DNA from: a virus
IMG/VR virus record: IMGVR_UViG_3300021964_004972
Span: 1 to 45,225 of that record
DNA length: 45,225 bases
Strand: one strand, 5' to 3'
Below are positions 29,867 through 43,746 of this stretch, piece by piece (within the stretch, counting starts at the first letter, position 1; every line of letters starts with the position of its first letter). Made by a program: the position numbers and the translations under genes. The notes beneath the pieces are model-generated. The model had not been told where the DNA came from, ran no database searches, and saw only the letters and a program-made list of their open reading frames with translations.

Positions 29867-30731
29867 TTTTGATTTCACCAAAGAACATCTAGCAGAAATC
29901 ATCAGCGATGATGCTGACAACTGGTATGATGCACTATGTGAACTACTACCAAAATACGGTATTACTACAGAACGCCGTGTAGCACACTTTCTAAGCCAGT
30001 GCGCCCACGAGTCGGCAGGCTTTAAACGCCTAGAAGAAAACCTAAACTATTCAGCAAAAGCACTTCGTGCAGTGTTTGGTCGTTACTTTGGTGATGCTCC
30101 AAAAGCAGATGCTGATGAATATGCTCGCAATCCAGAGATGATTGCTAACCGTGTTTACAACGATGAGTTCCGTAAATACAAAATGGGCAACGTTGAAGAA
30201 GGTGACGGTTGGAGATTCCGCGGACGTGGACTAAAGCAGTTAACTGGACGTGATAACTACACACGCTTTGGTGCTAGTGTTGACATGACAGCAGAAGAAG
30301 CAGCAGAATACGTAGCAACTCCAGCAGGTGCTATTGAATCAGCTTGTTGGTTCTGGGACGCAAACAACCTAAACGATATTGCTGACACTGATGATGTTGT
30401 AAAGATGACTAAAAAGATTAACGGCGGTAACATTGGACTAGAAGATCGTCAGAAGCGTTATAAACATGCTATGCAAGTACTAGGCATGGATGCAGATGAT
30501 TTAGGCTCAGATGATGATAGCGTTGAAGATATCTTAGATGACATTGGCGTACTACGCAAAGGCTGTAAAGGCGACGGTGTTAAACTAATGCAGGAAGCAC
30601 TAGGTATTGGCGCAGATGGCGACTTTGGTCCAGGTACTGAACGTGCGCTAAAAGCGTGGCAGGCAGCAAACGGTCTAACAGCAGACGGTATTGCAGGCCC
30701 TGCAACATTTGCTAAACTACTAGAGGATTGA
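29856..30731 (+). CDS. Endolysin: GH19 chitinase-like muramidase plus PG-binding domain
   Basis: This 291-residue endolysin degrades host peptidoglycan. Residues ~30-215 match glycoside hydrolase family 19: FLSQCAHESAGFKRLEENLNY with the likely catalytic E52, NRVYNDEFRKY, and RFRGRGLKQLTGRDNYTRFG. The C-terminal ~60 residues (LRKGCKGDGVKLMQEALGI, then DGDFGPGTERALKAWQ and DGIAGPATFAKL) form a PG_binding_1 domain. No signal peptide, so a holin is needed for export. ATG 29856 is used because it gives the normal N-terminus and lies after AAAAGGATC; a longer in-frame form would run through the zinc-finger gene. Spanin genes follow directly. Confidence 0.92.
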   Translation: MSFDFDFTKEHLAEIISDDADNWYDALCELLPKYGITTERRVAHFLSQCAHESAGFKRLEENLNYSAKALRAVFGRYFGDAPKADADEYARNPEMIANRVYNDEFRKYKMGNVEEGDGWRFRGRGLKQLTGRDNYTRFGASVDMTAEEAAEYVATPAGAIESACWFWDANNLNDIADTDDVVKMTKKINGGNIGLEDRQKRYKHAMQVLGMDADDLGSDDDSVEDILDDIGVLRKGCKGDGVKLMQEALGIGADGDFGPGTERALKAWQAANGLTADGIAGPATFAKLLED

Positions 30732-30735
30732 TAAG

Positions 30736-31206
30736 ATGGGGATGAAAATAGCAGCAGCAACTACACTTATGATGCTAATGTTATGCGGAGCGTTTTGGGT
30801 GTACTATCAAGACACACAGGAACGTATGGCCATCCTCAACGAAAATAATGCTAAACTAGAAACGGCAGTCGCTACAAGCGAAGCGGCTGTCGCTAGTCTA
30901 CAAGCAGACTTTAAACGAGCAAATGAAGAACTAAGTCGTGTTAATACAGAGTTTGCTGCTATACGTGCGCAAAACAACGTACTAGCAGACAAGCTAGCAA
31001 AACATGATTTAGCAGTACTTGGAAGCAGCAAACCAGCACTAGTTGAAAAACTAGTTAATCGTGGCACAATAAATGCAGGTAGATGTTTTGAACTACTTGC
31101 TGGTGCAGAACTAACTGATAAAGAAAAGGAGGCAACAAGTGGTACAGCGTTCAATAAAGAATGTCCTTGGCTATGGCCTGGTCCTGTCGCTACTCCTAGT
31201 AACTAG
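30736..31206 (+). CDS. Inner-membrane spanin (Rz-like)
   Basis: This 156-residue protein has a single N-terminal membrane anchor (residues ~4-22, MKIAAATTLMMLMLCGAFW) and a long periplasmic coiled coil (residues ~30-95, ENNAKLETAVATSEAAV onward) with Ala/Leu/Glu heptads. This is the standard i-spanin plan. Two Cys lie in the C-terminal region (GRCFELL; KECPW). It follows the endolysin by 4 nt and its last 68 nt overlap the lipoprotein gene in another frame, as in Rz/Rz1. ATG 30742 is an alternative start. It should span the periplasm with the lipoprotein to fuse membranes at lysis. Confidence 0.82.
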   Translation: MGMKIAAATTLMMLMLCGAFWVYYQDTQERMAILNENNAKLETAVATSEAAVASLQADFKRANEELSRVNTEFAAIRAQNNVLADKLAKHDLAVLGSSKPALVEKLVNRGTINAGRCFELLAGAELTDKEKEATSGTAFNKECPWLWPGPVATPSN

Positions 31207-31609
31207 TGGTTGTACTAGCATGCCTCAAAAGATTGAGGTTAGTGCAAAGCCTATCGAAAAGCCTGAACTAGTTCTACCGAATCCAGAAGCACTTAATATG
31301 AAAGAAGTTAAGTGGGTACTTCTAACTCCAGAAAACTTTGAAGAAAAACTAAAAGACTTTGAAACGTCTGGACGTCCTATTGTATTCTTTGCACTTACCG
31401 ACCAAGGATACGAAAACCTTTCACTAAACTTTAGCTCTATTAGAGCATACATTCAACAGCAACAAGCAATCATTGCTGCATATGAAAACTACTACAAGAA
31501 CGCAAACGAAGCACTTGACGCTGCAAACTCTGAAATAGACGGAGCAAAAGCACAAGTAGATGCACAACAAAAAGAGACACCAAAAGACCCTTTTTGGAAA
31601 GTATTCTAA
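31139..31609 (+). CDS. Outer-membrane spanin lipoprotein (Rz1-like)
   Basis: This 156-residue protein has a signal peptide with a lipobox, LVLSLLLVTSGC, with the lipid Cys at C25, followed by a periplasmic domain rich in Glu/Lys and a helical C-terminal part (YIQQQQAIIAAYENYYKNANEA). It starts at GTG 31139 inside the i-spanin gene; a strong AAAGGAGG Shine-Dalgarno 6-7 nt upstream supports this start despite the 68-nt overlap. It is larger than classic Rz1. A Gram-negative host is implied by this pair. Partner of the i-spanin in outer-membrane disruption. Confidence 0.82.
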   Translation: MVQRSIKNVLGYGLVLSLLLVTSGCTSMPQKIEVSAKPIEKPELVLPNPEALNMKEVKWVLLTPENFEEKLKDFETSGRPIVFFALTDQGYENLSLNFSSIRAYIQQQQAIIAAYENYYKNANEALDAANSEIDGAKAQVDAQQKETPKDPFWKVF

Positions 31610-31622
31610 ACTTCCTACTACT

Positions 31623-31684
31623 CTGCCCCTGTTCCTTATTACTAGCATTATAGCATAAATACTCATAGTAACAATGAGGGGCAG
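31623..31684 (+). promoter_or_regulatory. Inverted repeat masking a Shine-Dalgarno around a late promoter
   Basis: CTGCCCCT (31623-31630) is the exact complement of AGGGGCAG (31677-31684). The right arm contains the GAGGGG Shine-Dalgarno of the membrane-protein gene at 31690. The late motif CATAAATAC (core 31655-31661) lies in the loop. Read-through transcripts would carry both arms and hide the ribosome site; transcripts starting near 31667 would lack the left arm and be translatable. T4 controls lysozyme gene e and some other genes in this way. Confidence 0.6.
31655..31661 (+). promoter_or_regulatory. Late promoter motif before the holin-candidate genes
   Basis: CATAAATAC matches the late core at seven of eight positions, 28 nt before ATG 31690. 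It lies inside the loop of the 8-bp inverted repeat described at 31623-31684. Confidence 0.6.
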
Positions 31685-31689
31685 TTATT

Positions 31690-31971
31690 ATGTGGGATAT
31701 GATACAACAAATGGCAGGCGACCGTCTGTGGATTTATACTAGCATTGGAGGATCGTTGCTTGGCGCTGCGTTCCTGTTTTGGTTTAAAGACACAAGGATG
31801 GCAACATGGGGCGTAACTAAGTTTGATAGTACTCTAGAGTACCTTGCAATCCGTTGGGGATGGACTTGGTTGCAAAATGATCCTAATGCTTGGCGTGTAA
31901 AGTACCCTAAAATAACTTCTAAGATTGACGAGCTAGAAGCACGTCTTGCTAAACTAGAGGGGAAAGACTAA
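31690..31971 (+). CDS. Single-span membrane protein, holin-family candidate
   Basis: This 93-residue protein has one clear membrane helix (~12-32, RLWIYTSIGGSLLGAAFLFWF), a Trp-rich middle (IRWGWTWLQNDPNAW) and a charged C-terminal helix (KIDELEARLAKLEGKD). Its place after endolysin and spanins, and its hairpin-controlled Shine-Dalgarno, fit a lysis-timing role such as holin or antiholin. The sequence alone does not prove this. Its stop overlaps the next start (TAATG). Confidence 0.6.
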   Translation: MWDMIQQMAGDRLWIYTSIGGSLLGAAFLFWFKDTRMATWGVTKFDSTLEYLAIRWGWTWLQNDPNAWRVKYPKITSKIDELEARLAKLEGKD

Positions 31972-32303
31972 TGGCAGATAAAAAAACAATCGACGCTGAT
32001 GCAGTCGAGGGCATGGACGCAAACGGTGACGGACACATTTCTAAAGAAGAACTGGATATGCACCTTGAGTTCAAACGTAAAGCACTAGAAGATGCAGACG
32101 CACAGCGTGATGCAATGCGTAAAATGACTTGGTTCGCACTATTTGGTATGCTACTATATCCATTTACTATTGTAGCAACTAGCCTACTTGGTGCAGATAC
32201 TGCGGCAAATATTATTGGTGATATTGCACCTACATATTTTGTTGCTATCTCTGCTTTGGTTGCAGCATTCTTTGGTGCTGACGCTGTTAAAAGCAAGCAG
32301 TAA
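31971..32303 (+). CDS. EF-hand membrane protein, holin candidate
   Basis: This 110-residue protein has a canonical EF-hand calcium loop at residues 16-27 (DANGDGHISKEE, with ligands at D16, N18, D20, H22, S24 and E27) in a soluble N-terminus, then a charged helix and two hydrophobic spans (~47-70 MTWFALFGMLLYPFTIVATS; ~76-104 NIIGDIAPTYFVAISALVAA). Two spans, small size and the lysis-cassette position fit a class II holin-like protein; the calcium site is unusual. It is coupled to the previous gene. Ca binding and pore formation are inferred. Confidence 0.6.
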   Translation: MADKKTIDADAVEGMDANGDGHISKEELDMHLEFKRKALEDADAQRDAMRKMTWFALFGMLLYPFTIVATSLLGADTAANIIGDIAPTYFVAISALVAAFFGADAVKSKQ

Positions 32304-32319
32304 TCACTACTGTTAATAC

Positions 32320-32358
32320 ATAATAGTCCATGCGATAAGTAAATGTATGGACTATTAT
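32320..32358 (+). promoter_or_regulatory. 12-bp hairpin burying the dnaJ start codon
   Basis: ATAATAGTCCAT (32320-32331) pairs perfectly with ATGGACTATTAT (32347-32358). The right arm is the first four codons of dnaJ, so the start codon is inside the stem. The 15-nt loop allows one further C-G pair and two G-T wobbles. The stem has only four G-C pairs. There is no good Shine-Dalgarno. Candidate for temperature- or factor-dependent control of a chaperone; a terminator is a weaker alternative as no U-run follows. Confidence 0.6.
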
Positions 32359-33153
32359 TCTACACTAGGCGTTAACAAAAACGCTACTCAAGATGATATA
32401 CGTAAAGCATACAAAAAACAAAGTATGCAGCATCACCCTGATCGCGGCGGTAATGAAGAAGTCTTTAAAAAAATAAACGAAGCGTATAGCACATTAAAAG
32501 ATCCAGCTAAAAGACAAGAATACGATAATCCACAACCTCAATGGGATCAAAGAAACTATGCTGATCCGTTTGAGCAGATGTTTGGACAAATGCGAGGTAG
32601 ACGTCAGCGCAATAAGGATATATTATGTACAGCACAAGTAGAGTTAGTTGACATAATCAAAGGCAAAAAGTTAGATATAGAATATCAACTTCCTTCGGGC
32701 ATCAAGCAAACAGCAACAGTACATATTCCAGCAGGCATTGATAACAATGTAACTATGCGTTATCAAGGCTTAGGGGACAATATGTTTAAGCAGTTGCCTC
32801 GAGGAGACTTGTTAATAAAAGTAATAATAAGAACTCCGCGAGGTTGGGATAGACAAGGCGAAAACTTGTTAACATTTACTGAAGTAAATGTTTTTGAAGC
32901 AATGTTAGGAACTAAAAAAGTAATACGAACATTAGAGAACAAGACACTTCAACTAACAATACCTCCAGGAACACAACCTGATCAAGTTTTTAGTATCAGC
33001 GACCATGGACTTGTGAGTCAACGTACAGGAAAACGAGGAAGTATTTACGTTAAAGTGAAAGTAAAAGTGCCAAAAGTAGATGACAACGTCGGCCAAGATA
33101 TGTTACAATATATAAAGGAAGCACAAAATGAATATAGTAAAGTATCCAGATGA
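32347..33153 (+). CDS. dnaJ: DnaJ/CbpA-type J-domain co-chaperone
   Basis: This 268-residue Hsp40 has a J domain at residues 1-62 with the catalytic H30-P31-D32 (HHPDRGGNEEVFKKINEAY), then a short linker and C-terminal substrate-binding domains (~85-268) with VHIPAGIDNNVTMRYQGLG and LTIPPGTQPDQVFSISDHGL. It lacks the Cys-rich zinc finger of full DnaJ, so it is a class II (CbpA-like) form. It should stimulate host DnaK. Translation starts at the DYY of the J domain, in a hairpin and without a clear ribosome binding site. It overlaps the peptide deformylase by 26 nt. Confidence 0.9.
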   Translation: MDYYSTLGVNKNATQDDIRKAYKKQSMQHHPDRGGNEEVFKKINEAYSTLKDPAKRQEYDNPQPQWDQRNYADPFEQMFGQMRGRRQRNKDILCTAQVELVDIIKGKKLDIEYQLPSGIKQTATVHIPAGIDNNVTMRYQGLGDNMFKQLPRGDLLIKVIIRTPRGWDRQGENLLTFTEVNVFEAMLGTKKVIRTLENKTLQLTIPPGTQPDQVFSISDHGLVSQRTGKRGSIYVKVKVKVPKVDDNVGQDMLQYIKEAQNEYSKVSR

Positions 33154-33634
33154 ATGGTTGAATACAGTATGCGAGCCCTACGACTTTGAAAAGGACGGAG
33201 ATCCTCAAGAACTTGTTAGGGGTATGATCGAAACTATGCTCGAAAATGACGGCATTGGGTTAGCAGCACCTCAAGTACAATGCAATAAGGCTGTATTTGT
33301 GTTTAGACCTTTTAACATTGAAGGACACACAGACCCTATTGCTGTGTTTAATCCTTCTATTATTAATGTTGGATCTGGGTTAGATACTGCTGACGAAGGA
33401 TGTTTAAGCCATCCTGGATTAGTACTTTCGATAAAACGACCAGACAGCGTGACAACCGAATATCTTGACATTTATGGTCAAAAGCGTGTATTATTTTTAC
33501 AAGGCATCGATGCAAGATGTTTTTTGCATGAGTTTGATCATTTATGCGGAACAGATTTTACACACAGAGTAAGCAAACTAAAAAGAGAAATGGCTCTAAA
33601 AAAACTTAATAAGAGGAAAAAAGTTCATGGTTGA
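33128..33634 (+). CDS. def: Peptide deformylase
   Basis: This 168-residue metalloenzyme removes the formyl group from new proteins. All three motifs are present: GIGLAAPQ at 42-49, EGCLS at 90-94 (metal ligand C92) and HEFDH at 134-138 (ligands H134 and H138, catalytic E135). The length is normal (about 165-190). The tail is basic (KLKREMALKKLNKRKK). The gene overlaps dnaJ by 26 nt and clpA by 8 nt, with AAAGGAAG as ribosome site. Marine phages often carry deformylases; placing it between DnaJ and ClpA is notable. Confidence 0.95.
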   Translation: MNIVKYPDEWLNTVCEPYDFEKDGDPQELVRGMIETMLENDGIGLAAPQVQCNKAVFVFRPFNIEGHTDPIAVFNPSIINVGSGLDTADEGCLSHPGLVLSIKRPDSVTTEYLDIYGQKRVLFLQGIDARCFLHEFDHLCGTDFTHRVSKLKREMALKKLNKRKKVHG

Positions 33635-35861
33635 ACCAAGTGAAGCACTACAAATCGTATTTGACAAAGCAGTTGAAGATGCTTTGAAACTACGTCATGA
33701 ATATGTTACTTTGGAGCATCTGCTGTTTGCAATGATGTGCGAAGAAACATTTTGTACACTAGTTGAAGAATACGGTGCAAATGTTGAATACATTAAAAGC
33801 AACTTAGAGCAGTATTTAAAAAACGAAATCGAACGCTTGCCTGGCGCAGACAAGTATAAGCCACAGAAAACACAAGGTGTTGAACGTGTTCTTAATCGTG
33901 CGTTTACACAGACACTGTTTAATGGTCGTCAAGAAATAACTATTGTTGACGTATTCCTAAGTTTGTTACATGAAAAGAAAAGCTACGGTACATATTTCTT
34001 AGAAAAGTCTGGTGTTGAAAAAGACAAGTTCCAGGCATATGTGAATCATTCAGTAACTGAAGAGATTGACGAAGAAGTTGATAGTATTCTACAAAAAGCA
34101 CTTGATGCGTTTACTACAGATCTTAACTCTGAAGTAGTTAAAGGAAAGATTGATCCTGTTATTGGCCGCTCAGAAGAACTAGAAAGTATTGCACTTGCAC
34201 TAGGACGTCGAAACAAAAACAACGTATTGCTTGTTGGTGAGCCAGGTGTTGGTAAGACTGCTATTGCTGAAGGTCTTGCATACAACATTGAAAATAAAAC
34301 TGTGCCTAGCTTCTTGCAAGAGTACAATGTTTATAATCTAGACATTGGCAGCATGCTTGCTGGATCAAAGTACCGCGGTGACTTTGAAGAACGTTTTAAA
34401 ATGGTTGTAAAAGCATTACAGAAAAAAGGCAAGACTGTAATGTTCATCGACGAAGCACACATGATTAGTGGTGCAGGCGCAGGTGGCGGCAACAGTGCAA
34501 ACGATCTTGCTAACATGCTCAAGCCAGCACTAAGCAAAGGTGACATTAAAGTTGTTGCTTCAACCACGTGGGAAGAATACCGCAAGCACTTTGAAAAGGA
34601 TCGTGCTCTAATGCGTCGATTCCAGCGTGTAACTGTAGACGAACCGACTGCAGAAGTAACTAAGGATATTTTGCGTGGTATTAAGAAATATTACGAAGAC
34701 TTCCACAAAGTTACTATTACAGATGCAGCTATTGACTCGTCTATTAAACTTAGTGTCAAGTACCAATACGATAAGAAACTGCCTGACAAGGCTATTGACT
34801 TAATCGATGTTGCGTGTAGTCGCTTTAAACTTAAAGAGTCTGACGAAGAAAAAGTAGTAGACGTTGATCAGATCCAGTATGAACTGTCGAGAATCGTTAA
34901 CATTCCAGAAGAGACTGTTAAAGAAGCAGAAAGCGAAAGCCTAGCTAACCTTGACAAAAACATGAAAGCAGAAGTGTTTGGTCAAGACAAAGCGATTGAT
35001 CAGATTGTTGACAAGATTCATATTGCACAAGCAGGACTTAAATCAGAAAACCGTCCAGTTGGTAGCTTTGTATTCATGGGTCCAACAGGTTGTGGTAAAA
35101 CTGAAACTGCTAAACAGTTGAGCAAGCACTTGGGTATTCCGCTAGTACGCTTTGACATGTCAGAGTTTATGGAGAAACACTCAGTTGCTAAGTTTATTGG
35201 TTCACCTCCGGGCTACGTAGGTCACGAAGAAAACGCAGGCCTGTTGATTACTAAACTACAAGAAACACCTAACTGTGTACTATTGCTTGATGAGATCGAA
35301 AAAGCACACCCGGATGTATCACAAATCTTGCTACAAGTAATGGATAACGGTTTTGTAACTGGTTCTAATGGTAAGGTTGCGGATGCACGTAACTGTGTAC
35401 TAATCTTAACTACAAACTTGGGTGCAGCCGCAAGCGAAAAGAATACTATCGGTTTTGGTAGTGACAACAAAGACTATGAAGACACAGAACTTAAACAGTT
35501 CTTTGCTCCAGAGTTCCGCAATCGCTTAGACGGAGTCATTACGTTTGGTAAACTAGAAAAGAATACAATGATGAAGATTGTTGGTAAGTTCTTGCTAGAG
35601 CTAAAAGAACAAGTAGTAGACAAAAATGTTGCTATTAGTGTTACTGATTCAGCTCTTGATTACTTAGTTGACACTGGCTTTGATCCTAAAATGGGAGCAA
35701 GACCATTGCAGCGTATTATTGATCAAGACATTAAGAGACCGCTTTCTAAACTGCTATTGTTTGGAGATCTAAAGAATGGCGGGAAAGTAGAAGTTGATGT
35801 TGCAGACGACACAATCATTCTACATACTGAGGTAATGGAAACGGAAGTTGTCACCGAGTAA
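33627..35861 (+). CDS. clpA: ClpA-like AAA+ protein unfoldase
   Basis: This 744-residue protein has the full ClpA plan: an N-domain (~1-145, DALKLRHEYVTLEHLLFAMM), AAA+ module 1 with Walker A GEPGVGKT (204-211) and Walker B MFIDEAH (272-278), and module 2 with Walker A GPTGCGKT (485-492), LLLDEIEKAHPDV and FAPEFRNRLDG. The tripeptide IGF (608-610) lies where ClpA/ClpX proteins carry the IG[FL] loop that docks on ClpP, so it probably partners with host or phage ClpP. It lacks the long ClpB middle domain. Near-full length and apparently intact. It closes the dnaJ-def-clpA operon. Confidence 0.95.
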   Translation: MVEPSEALQIVFDKAVEDALKLRHEYVTLEHLLFAMMCEETFCTLVEEYGANVEYIKSNLEQYLKNEIERLPGADKYKPQKTQGVERVLNRAFTQTLFNGRQEITIVDVFLSLLHEKKSYGTYFLEKSGVEKDKFQAYVNHSVTEEIDEEVDSILQKALDAFTTDLNSEVVKGKIDPVIGRSEELESIALALGRRNKNNVLLVGEPGVGKTAIAEGLAYNIENKTVPSFLQEYNVYNLDIGSMLAGSKYRGDFEERFKMVVKALQKKGKTVMFIDEAHMISGAGAGGGNSANDLANMLKPALSKGDIKVVASTTWEEYRKHFEKDRALMRRFQRVTVDEPTAEVTKDILRGIKKYYEDFHKVTITDAAIDSSIKLSVKYQYDKKLPDKAIDLIDVACSRFKLKESDEEKVVDVDQIQYELSRIVNIPEETVKEAESESLANLDKNMKAEVFGQDKAIDQIVDKIHIAQAGLKSENRPVGSFVFMGPTGCGKTETAKQLSKHLGIPLVRFDMSEFMEKHSVAKFIGSPPGYVGHEENAGLLITKLQETPNCVLLLDEIEKAHPDVSQILLQVMDNGFVTGSNGKVADARNCVLILTTNLGAAASEKNTIGFGSDNKDYEDTELKQFFAPEFRNRLDGVITFGKLEKNTMMKIVGKFLLELKEQVVDKNVAISVTDSALDYLVDTGFDPKMGARPLQRIIDQDIKRPLSKLLLFGDLKNGGKVEVDVADDTIILHTEVMETEVVTE

Positions 35862-41268: not shown

Positions 41269-41951
41269 TGAAGTTAAGAGAGTTATACAGCAATACTAGT
41301 AGCGCATTGTACGAAGCAGAAACTCCGCAAGGAGTTGTTGTTATATATGCAGGACGTTTTCATCCTTTCCATAAAGGACATAAAGCAGTTTTTGATTCTG
41401 CTGTAAAAGTATACGGTATTGAAAAGTGCTTTATTGCTACAAGTGCTAAAGTTGAACCTCCAAAAAGTCCTTTCACGTTTGACGAAAAGTTAAAAATGAT
41501 TTCACTAACAGGCATTGATCCTAGTAAAGTAGTGCAATGTAGAGTTCCGTATAAGCCTGACGAAATACTCAGTAAGTACGATGCAACAACTACAGTTGCT
41601 AAGTTTTTAGTAGGTGCAAAGGATATGGATACTGATCCTAGATTTAGTTTTGCACCTAAAAAGGATGGATCTGCAAGTTACTTACAAGATGCTGATGCAA
41701 ACAGAGGAAACTTTGAAACCTTCGATAAACATGCATACGTTGTAACTGCGCCTACACTAAACTTTACAGTGCTAGGTCAACCCGCTACAAGTGCAACAGA
41801 ACTTCGTGCGCAATATGCAACACTAGATGATGATACTGCACGTAAGTTTATAGTAGACCTATTTGGCAACTTTAGTGAAGAAGTAATGACCATTCTTGAT
41901 ACTAAGTTGAATAGACAAAACAAGATGGGAGATGACGATGCTACTTCGTGA
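41268..41951 (+). CDS. Nucleotidylyltransferase (NMNAT/cytidylyltransferase-like)
   Basis: This 227-residue enzyme has the HxGH nucleotidyltransferase signature in YAGRFHPFHKGH (~28-39) and SATELR near 182-187, the counterpart of the family ISSTxxR motif. These enzymes transfer AMP or CMP, as in NAD, CoA or FAD synthesis; the substrate here cannot be told. A leader of ~20 residues (MKLRELYSNTSSALYEAE) precedes the domain and resembles a T4 capsid-targeting sequence with an L-x-E cleavage site. If it is packaged, the enzyme would be injected with DNA. The gene is coupled at TAATG and overlaps the next by 20 nt. Confidence 0.8.
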   Translation: MKLRELYSNTSSALYEAETPQGVVVIYAGRFHPFHKGHKAVFDSAVKVYGIEKCFIATSAKVEPPKSPFTFDEKLKMISLTGIDPSKVVQCRVPYKPDEILSKYDATTTVAKFLVGAKDMDTDPRFSFAPKKDGSASYLQDADANRGNFETFDKHAYVVTAPTLNFTVLGQPATSATELRAQYATLDDDTARKFIVDLFGNFSEEVMTILDTKLNRQNKMGDDDATS

Positions 41952-43746
41952 ACTTTTTTATAAAACATTAAACGAAGCAGAAGCTCCTGAATATGCTGAT
42001 GCACTAAAAGCAATCGATACTACAGACAGTTTGTGGAAACGTAGCAAACGCGGTAGTGTAAAGTCAGACGAAGTTAAAGCTCTTCAACAAGCACTAAACG
42101 ATTTAGGGTATGATGTTGGTACAGCAGACGGATGGTTTGGTAAAAAGACGGCAACCGCAGTTCGCAAGTTCCAAGGCGACAATGATCTAACTGTAGACGG
42201 TGATCCTGGTGCAAACACTATTTCTAAAATGAATAGTGTAGTTGCAGACAAGTATCCTGAAGAACCAGAAACTGGCGGCAGAGGCGACGGTGATGCAGAA
42301 GCAGATCGTAGAGCTGCTGACAACAATGGGCAACCTCGTGGTACAGAAGATGACGTAATGAGTCAGCAAGTTGTAGAACCGGACAACGGTTGGCAAGATG
42401 TTGACCCACAGTTTGCACAAGGTCTTCCAGACGGTTATGAAATAAAGCGTGGTCGTGTAGACGGTGAAGACATGTTCTTACTTGTACGTCCAAACGGTAC
42501 AGAAGAAACAAGTAATGATCTACAAGGACTAATACGTGTTGCACAAGCAGATATTGAAGCAGATCAAGAACGTGCAGCCGGTGCAGGCATAGACGGTCAA
42601 GATGCACAACGAGCTCAAGGCATGGGTGTAGAACGTCCTGCAGATCCTGCAAGCACAATGCGTGACAATGAAATAGAAGGCACTGGGCAATGGCGTATTA
42701 CTCCGTCACCAAACAATCCTACTACTTTTGTTGTTAGACGTCCGGACGGTAGTATTGACACAAGTTTTAACAGTGGTAATCCGTTTACAAGATCTAAAGC
42801 AGACGGAGAAGGTCAGGACTATATTGACAGATTAAACAGAGAGCAAGGACTAACAGATGAACCAGAAGTTACTGGATCAGGTCGTGGTGATGGTAATGCA
42901 GAAGTTGCAGCAAGACGTGAAGAAGCAGCAAAGCAAGCAACTGAAGAGTTTGTTAGAGCGCAAGTTGCTGAACTAACTCGTATACGTAGAAACTATCCTG
43001 AAGATCAGTTAATACGAAAAATAACAGCAGACGCAGTTGAACAAGGGTTAAATGATGATTGGGCAGAAAATGGTGCTATGGCTGAATACATTGCAGAGCT
43101 AGTACCAACAGTTGATAGAACTACACCTACTCCAACTGCAAGCACAGATGCTCCTACTATGTCACAACCTGATGCAGGTGGCGATTCTGGTGCTGATCAA
43201 CTAGCTAGACAAGCTACAGATGACGAAAGAGCATTCCAATCAGCACAAGGCATAACTGCTCCAGACGCAGATGCAGCACCAAGCGTAGACAGCACTACAG
43301 CAACAGCGCAGCAAATATCAAGATTCCAGCAAGCATACGGCAATGGTACTGATGGACAACTTCCAACACAGTTCCGTGATGCTATTTTAAATCCTGCACT
43401 AAACTATCAACAAAACACACCAGCACAAGAAACACAAAGTTTAAATGCTATGAAGAAACTTCAAGCAGAAGTTGCAGGCGAAATACCGCAAGCAGTTGCT
43501 AGGGTTACTATTGAAAGAATGTTACAATCCGACTTTGGTAGAGAAGTAAGAGGTGTAGATACTTTTCCAGGACTTATTAATGAACTAAAAGGAATGGTTC
43601 AAGAACTTCAAGGCGACCCTGCTCTTAGAACACAAGCAGAATACTATCAAACAAAAATAGCAGTTATTGAAAAACTAATGCAAGATATGGCAAGACCAAA
43701 CGAAAGTGTTGAGCTAGATAGAATCAAAATGTTAGCAGGTGTGTAA
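41932..43746 (+). CDS. Large acidic protein with PG-binding-1 domain
   Basis: This 604-residue protein starts MLLRELFYKTLNEAEAPEY, capsid-targeting-like with LNEAE as a possible gp21-type cleavage site. Residues ~40-100 (DEVKALQQALNDLGYDVGT, then DGWFGKKTATAVRKFQ) are a PG_binding_1 domain like the endolysin C-terminus. The rest is low-complexity, Gln/Asp/Ala/Gly-rich and probably disordered, with a repeated GRGDGxAE element near 116 and 318. It ends in ELDRIKMLAGV, echoed by the start of the next gene product. Possible roles are internal head protein or baseplate/cell-wall contact; both are inferred. Confidence 0.7.
   Translation: MTMLLRELFYKTLNEAEAPEYADALKAIDTTDSLWKRSKRGSVKSDEVKALQQALNDLGYDVGTADGWFGKKTATAVRKFQGDNDLTVDGDPGANTISKMNSVVADKYPEEPETGGRGDGDAEADRRAADNNGQPRGTEDDVMSQQVVEPDNGWQDVDPQFAQGLPDGYEIKRGRVDGEDMFLLVRPNGTEETSNDLQGLIRVAQADIEADQERAAGAGIDGQDAQRAQGMGVERPADPASTMRDNEIEGTGQWRITPSPNNPTTFVVRRPDGSIDTSFNSGNPFTRSKADGEGQDYIDRLNREQGLTDEPEVTGSGRGDGNAEVAARREEAAKQATEEFVRAQVAELTRIRRNYPEDQLIRKITADAVEQGLNDDWAENGAMAEYIAELVPTVDRTTPTPTASTDAPTMSQPDAGGDSGADQLARQATDDERAFQSAQGITAPDADAAPSVDSTTATAQQISRFQQAYGNGTDGQLPTQFRDAILNPALNYQQNTPAQETQSLNAMKKLQAEVAGEIPQAVARVTIERMLQSDFGREVRGVDTFPGLINELKGMVQELQGDPALRTQAEYYQTKIAVIEKLMQDMARPNESVELDRIKMLAGV

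Follow-up and report, generated by a model that had tools for sequence, protein, structure and literature searches.

Organization of the late lysis cassette

The window (W) analysed here is the whole of the 45,225-base virus record IMGVR_UViG_3300021964_004972, which contains T4-type genes such as those for a clamp loader and a baseplate wedge / tail-fibre connector. Around position 31690, genes on the same strand encode two structural proteins of the virion, an endolysin that combines a GH19-like region with a peptidoglycan-binding domain, an i-spanin and an o-spanin. This stretch forms a late lysis cassette, in which the following positions were established:

30736..31206, + strand: i-spanin (Rz-like), 156 aa; matches phrog_739, Rz-like spanin, E 3e-9
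31139..31609, + strand: o-spanin gene (Rz1-like lipoprotein); matches phrog_812, Rz-like spanin, E 4e-10
31588..31594, + strand: -1 slippery heptamer C_CCU_UUU, in phase with the o-spanin, read from the sequence; it ends 15 nt before the end of the stop codon
31594..31653, + strand: -1 frame tail LESILNFLLLCPCSLLLAL with its TAG stop, recognized by amino-acid conservation and purifying selection; contains the left arm
31623..31630, + strand: left arm CTGCCCCT of an inverted repeat, inside the tail codons CTC TGC CCC TGT
31655..31661, + strand: T4-type late promoter box ATAAATA(C); NTAAATA in 54 of 60 distinct relatives
31677..31684, + strand: right arm AGGGGCAG, overlapping the Shine-Dalgarno (SD) sequence of the 93-aa gene
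31690..31971, + strand: 93-aa gene, conserved, with one hydrophobic segment by hydropathy (the 'holin candidate' of the first-pass annotation)
31971..32303, + strand: 110-aa protein, EF-hand-like at its N-terminus, containing two hydrophobic segments; in 20 of 53 long relatives only

The i-spanin has a hydrophobic segment at its N-terminus, and its gene overlaps that of the o-spanin downstream. The latter starts with GTG, encodes a lipobox (...VTSGC25, within LLLVTSGC near the N-terminus), and ends in the zero frame with the residues PKDPFWKVF before its stop. An i-spanin gene adjoining a lipoprotein o-spanin gene is the arrangement of a two-component spanin, and in their adjacency, their overlap and their PHROG matches to Rz-like spanins the two W genes resemble the Rz/Rz1 pairs of lambda and P2 (LysB/LysC). 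Homologues of the o-spanin are found at 51 of the 53 long loci of relatives. Among isolated phages there was no DNA match to window positions 30000-34000, and among genome contigs the W-clade junction had no match. About 10 kb from the cassette lies a 604-aa ORF (window 41932-43746) whose N-terminal peptidoglycan-binding domain resembles endolysins.

The ATAAATA word before the 93-aa gene had been proposed in the first-pass annotation to be a late promoter, a reading that is borne out by its conservation. In 80 IMG/VR relatives of the 93-aa gene, AATAAATACACATAGTAA is a frequent form of the promoter; of 60 distinct upstream regions, 54 contain NTAAATA, mostly at -25 to -36 from the start codon. 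On the + strand of the window, all eight ATAAATAC boxes are positioned 11-44 nt upstream of an ORF start, and 11 of the 12 ATAAATA words lie on this strand, their total number being not above chance. Boxes of the NATAAATA type, reported to act as late promoters in T4-like cyanophages (PMC2984593), are found in W where T4-type late promoters are expected, just upstream of late genes and on the gene strand. With its conservation established, the box at 31655 is well supported as a genuine late promoter that serves the 93-aa gene.

IMG/VR contains 233 relatives of the 93-aa protein, the best 80 of which are 79-96% identical to it, and the protein represents a marine phage family that is widespread and unnamed; searches returned no Pfam or PHROG match and no relative among isolated phage records. 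Its earlier designation as a holin is unproven, as the protein has a single hydrophobic segment and no family match, and nothing marks it as a holin. The layout of the 110-aa protein is more holin-like than that of its neighbour, yet only the 20 of 53 long relatives possess it. In addition, L010, L013, L059 and L067 have unrelated short hydrophobic reading frames just upstream of the 93-aa gene, at the place of the W tail, which may encode small membrane or lysis proteins. In L022, L039, L050, L053 and L056, the interval from the o-spanin to the late promoter contains a second small ORF (...AKPDPKVTID...NIEVTPGATVACEF) that bears cysteine and resembles a lipoprotein.

An inverted repeat across the promoter and ribosome site

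The arms CTGCCCCT and AGGGGCAG flank the ATAAATA box, the ATG follows at 31690, and the ribosome site of this gene falls within the right arm, all of which had been noted in the first-pass annotation and was verified in the sequence. Across the 45-kb window, no other GC-rich 8-bp inverted repeat has its arms separated by 20-60 nt. First-order Markov controls yield a mean of 0.43 and a maximum of 3 such repeats per window, and the occurrence of one is thus unremarkable, whereas its placement across the SD sequence and the promoter is remarkable and suggestive. In the predicted fold of the RNA from 31600 to 31720, the helix has a pair probability of about 0.9-0.98 and the MFE is -27.9 kcal/mol, which is a modest stability relative to shuffled sequences (z = -1.35). 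The AGGGG core of the SD sequence (31677-31681) is predicted to be unpaired only 0-3% of the time in long RNAs; in RNA starting at 31667, it is predicted to be mostly open with a short 3' context and variable with a longer one.

The first-pass annotation interpreted this arrangement as a timing switch of the T4 gene e type, in which read-through RNA would close the SD sequence of the gene at 31690, while RNA initiated at the late promoter would lack the left arm and be open. The arrangement shares several features with the leader of T4 gene e (lysozyme): in both, a late promoter sits between the arms, the right arm covers the ribosome site, and the long RNA is predicted to be closed (PMC3014915). 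The T4 hairpin, however, is kept in the related leaders of close T4 relatives (PMC3014915), and the hairpin in W is not conserved. A lack of conserved pairing in related phages had been specified beforehand as a result that would refute the switch, and among the other tail-bearing relatives with an SD sequence at the corresponding place the longest complements are 5, 4, 4 and 5 nt, as compared to 8 in W; even L017, the nearest of these, retains only 5 nt. In relatives other than the tail-bearing ones, the sequence at the place of the left arm is unrelated to that of W. While the closure of the long RNA is predicted for W, the description of this RNA as early is unsupported, since the upstream genes, which encode the endolysin, the spanins and virion proteins, are of late types and leave early read-through without evidence. 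The left arm, moreover, is constrained as part of a protein-coding -1 frame, which accounts for its sequence, and the 31690 gene is a lysis gene only by its candidate label, in a further difference from gene e. Taken with the modest z-score, these observations make the timing switch quite unlikely.

A conserved SD-masking hairpin was therefore rejected, given the relatives that lack the pairing, and a terminator reading of the repeat was dropped on account of its 46-nt loop and the absence of a U-run. The hairpin in W is most likely incidental: the tail codons CTC TGC CCC TGT would by chance complement the SD sequence of the 93-aa gene and so create the inverted repeat. The repeat may reduce read-through translation of the 93-aa gene in W, though not as a conserved device.

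A hidden -1 frame tail and a slippery heptamer

The tail that contains the left arm ends with its stop at 31653, one base short of the ATAAATA box. Its counterparts, likewise in the -1 frame of the o-spanin, are LEGVVKFLVLCPCSLLLTL in L017/L082, LESVLNFLLICPCSLILAL in L083, FQDILNFLLLCPCSVLLAL in L038/L086 and FKSFLILCPCGLLLAL in L018. A sixth and more distant tail, KAKVLVMFPWSMLLGI in L154, is less well conserved and contains no cysteines; as it was picked by heptamer and hydrophobicity jointly, it is not an independent test and is weaker than the five CPC tails. The tail is thus present in six of the 147 distinct o-spanin homologues, in at least four lineages, and all six cases are environmental contigs, with no cultured phage among them. 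Its C-terminus comprises 13-17 uncharged residues with a mean 13-residue hydropathy of 2.1-2.7, which is short for a transmembrane span.

Selection on the tail was established from its substitution pattern. Among the four closest sequences, codon position 2 exhibits 0-1 changes per pair, as compared to 6-11 at position 3, and the number of amino-acid changes falls below expectation in every one of the six pairs, which are not independent of each other (simulated p <5e-5 to 0.044). The -1 frame beyond the o-spanin stop is therefore under protein-coding selection, as would be expected of a frameshift extension.

On the o-spanin tree, a minimum of four gains or losses is required to account for the tail, and tail-less genes neighbour tail-bearing ones (L001 by L038, L005 by L018); the tail thus moves or is lost as a unit. 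L213 has nearly the same C-terminal end as L017 (PIWKVW), yet it has neither heptamer nor tail. No such tail was found in the distant o-spanin relatives of HTVC008M, Vibrio phage Va1 and RDJL Phi 1. A search of viral contigs with a degenerate DNA pattern gave additional matches, which were discarded as unrelated genes outside an o-spanin context. The C-terminal cysteine of the i-spanin is kept with or without the tail, leaving cysteine covariation between the two uninformative.

In the sample of 147 distinct o-spanin genes, all six that bear the tail carry an in-phase X_XXY_YYZ heptamer 9-15 nt upstream of the stop codon, as compared to 1 of the 141 others. The association between heptamer and tail is thereby established (Fisher p 5.5e-10, or 2.8e-7 with the tails counted as four lineages). 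Such a heptamer occurs in 5.1% of 1,322 long ORFs, and its combination with a hydrophobic -1 extension was found in seven of these ORFs, six of which are the tail-bearing o-spanins. The heptamer is C_CCU_UUU in W, L017 and L083, U_UUU_UUC in L038, U_UUU_UUA in L018 and G_GGA_AAG in L154; its sequence thus differs between lineages (CCCUUUU, UUUUUUC, UUUUUUA, GGGAAAG) with the slippery property kept.

A stimulatory structure downstream or an SD-like element upstream is common in -1 frameshifts, albeit not obligatory. Downstream of the heptamer, no conserved or unusually stable fold was found; a simple stem, GGAA...UUCC, of W and L083 was set aside, being absent in L086 and L018, with z-scores near zero. 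The upstream region is purine-rich, with no consistent SD-like element seen.

The best explanation for the locus is a programmed -1 frameshift in the o-spanin gene, which probably gives rise to a minor form whose C-terminus seeks the membrane. Translation would mostly stop at 31609, producing the normal lipoprotein o-spanin, while some ribosomes would slip back by one base at C_CCU_UUU (31588-31594) and add the hydrophobic C-terminus LESILNFLLLCPCSLLLAL. That frameshifting takes place is probable from the sequence evidence; on the other side, the CCCUUUU heptamer may slip only weakly, few homologues have the tail (6/147), an i-spanin is also present, and the uncharged run is short for a membrane span. 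Alternatively, the tail could be a small membrane protein in its own right, initiated independently, for example at TTG 31594 (MESILNFLLLCPCSLLLAL, 19 aa), with its translation coupled to that of the o-spanin. W, L017 and L083 do share a TTG, a possible initiation codon, at this same position where the tail begins, but L086 and L018 retain the tail with no ATG, GTG or TTG in its frame before the last few codons, and slippery heptamers of different sequence in six of six cases would be left unexplained. A separate protein is accordingly considered unlikely. That the tail is a relic or a chance open frame devoid of function, and the heptamers a coincidence, would suit its shortness, its rarity and its absence from many close relatives (L001, L005 and L011 among them); this is very improbable in light of the selection on its amino acids and of a heptamer association of 6/6 against 1/141.

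A probable recoded o-spanin and its possible role

The predicted frameshift resembles those of the lambda G/GT tail-chaperone genes and T7 gene 10 in having a short -1 extension and, shortly ahead of the stop, an in-phase X_XXY_YYZ heptamer, but differs in the nature of the gene, which in W encodes an outer-membrane spanin, and of the extension, here a hydrophobic tail. GGGAAAG, the heptamer of L154, is the signal reported for the T7-10A/10B-like capsid frameshift of phage Privateer (PMC7881722), and nearly all annotated frameshifts in the phage set of PRFect are reported as tail chaperones (PMC10885494). Frameshifting in the service of a lysis protein has a parallel in RNA phages, in which a frameshift in the coat gene releases ribosomes, which can then initiate on the overlapping lysis gene (PMC10885494); in W, by contrast, the frameshift would extend the protein itself.

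A unimolecular spanin (u-spanin) is defined by an N-terminal lipoprotein signal and a C-terminal transmembrane domain (PMC6139136). The predicted frameshift product of W, with its N-terminal lipoprotein signal and hydrophobic C-terminus, is similar to such a protein, of which gp11 of phage T1 is an example. However, it has a short C-terminal segment and would arise via frameshifting only, and W has a separate i-spanin (30736-31206) where a u-spanin acts as a single protein. W is not a u-spanin phage, because the i-spanin is still present. In comparison with lysis families, the -1 product matched Rz-like spanins alone and no known u-spanin family.

The extended isoform would be an outer-membrane lipoprotein composed of a lipid anchor, a periplasmic part and a hydrophobic C-terminal end, which is the u-spanin layout, and might link or fuse membranes beside the normal i-spanin/o-spanin pair. 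Our best guess, which is speculative, is that the minor isoform touches the inner membrane and helps the spanin pair to draw the membranes together. Alternatively, the tail could provide a C-terminal disulphide or a degradation signal, although a general disulphide role is argued against by the tail of L154, which has no cysteines. A tentative and more specific possibility is that one gene supplies two outer-membrane spanins by -1 frameshifting, namely the normal o-spanin and, as a minor product, a u-spanin-like form whose hydrophobic C-terminus has a CPC or PW motif. The slippery site would determine their ratio, which would be preserved across lineages that exchanged heptamers.

In phages, frameshifting is known chiefly for genes of tail chaperones and capsids. 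To our knowledge, no recoded hydrophobic extension has been reported for an o-spanin, and in the literature searched, which covers few subscription journals, there was no report of a frameshift in a spanin gene. Short conserved hydrophobic tails such as this one escape gene callers and can pass for regulatory hairpins. If the proposed frameshift is true, one gene would supply both the two-component and the single-protein routes to outer-membrane disruption, and the recoded spanin could suggest how unimolecular spanins originated.
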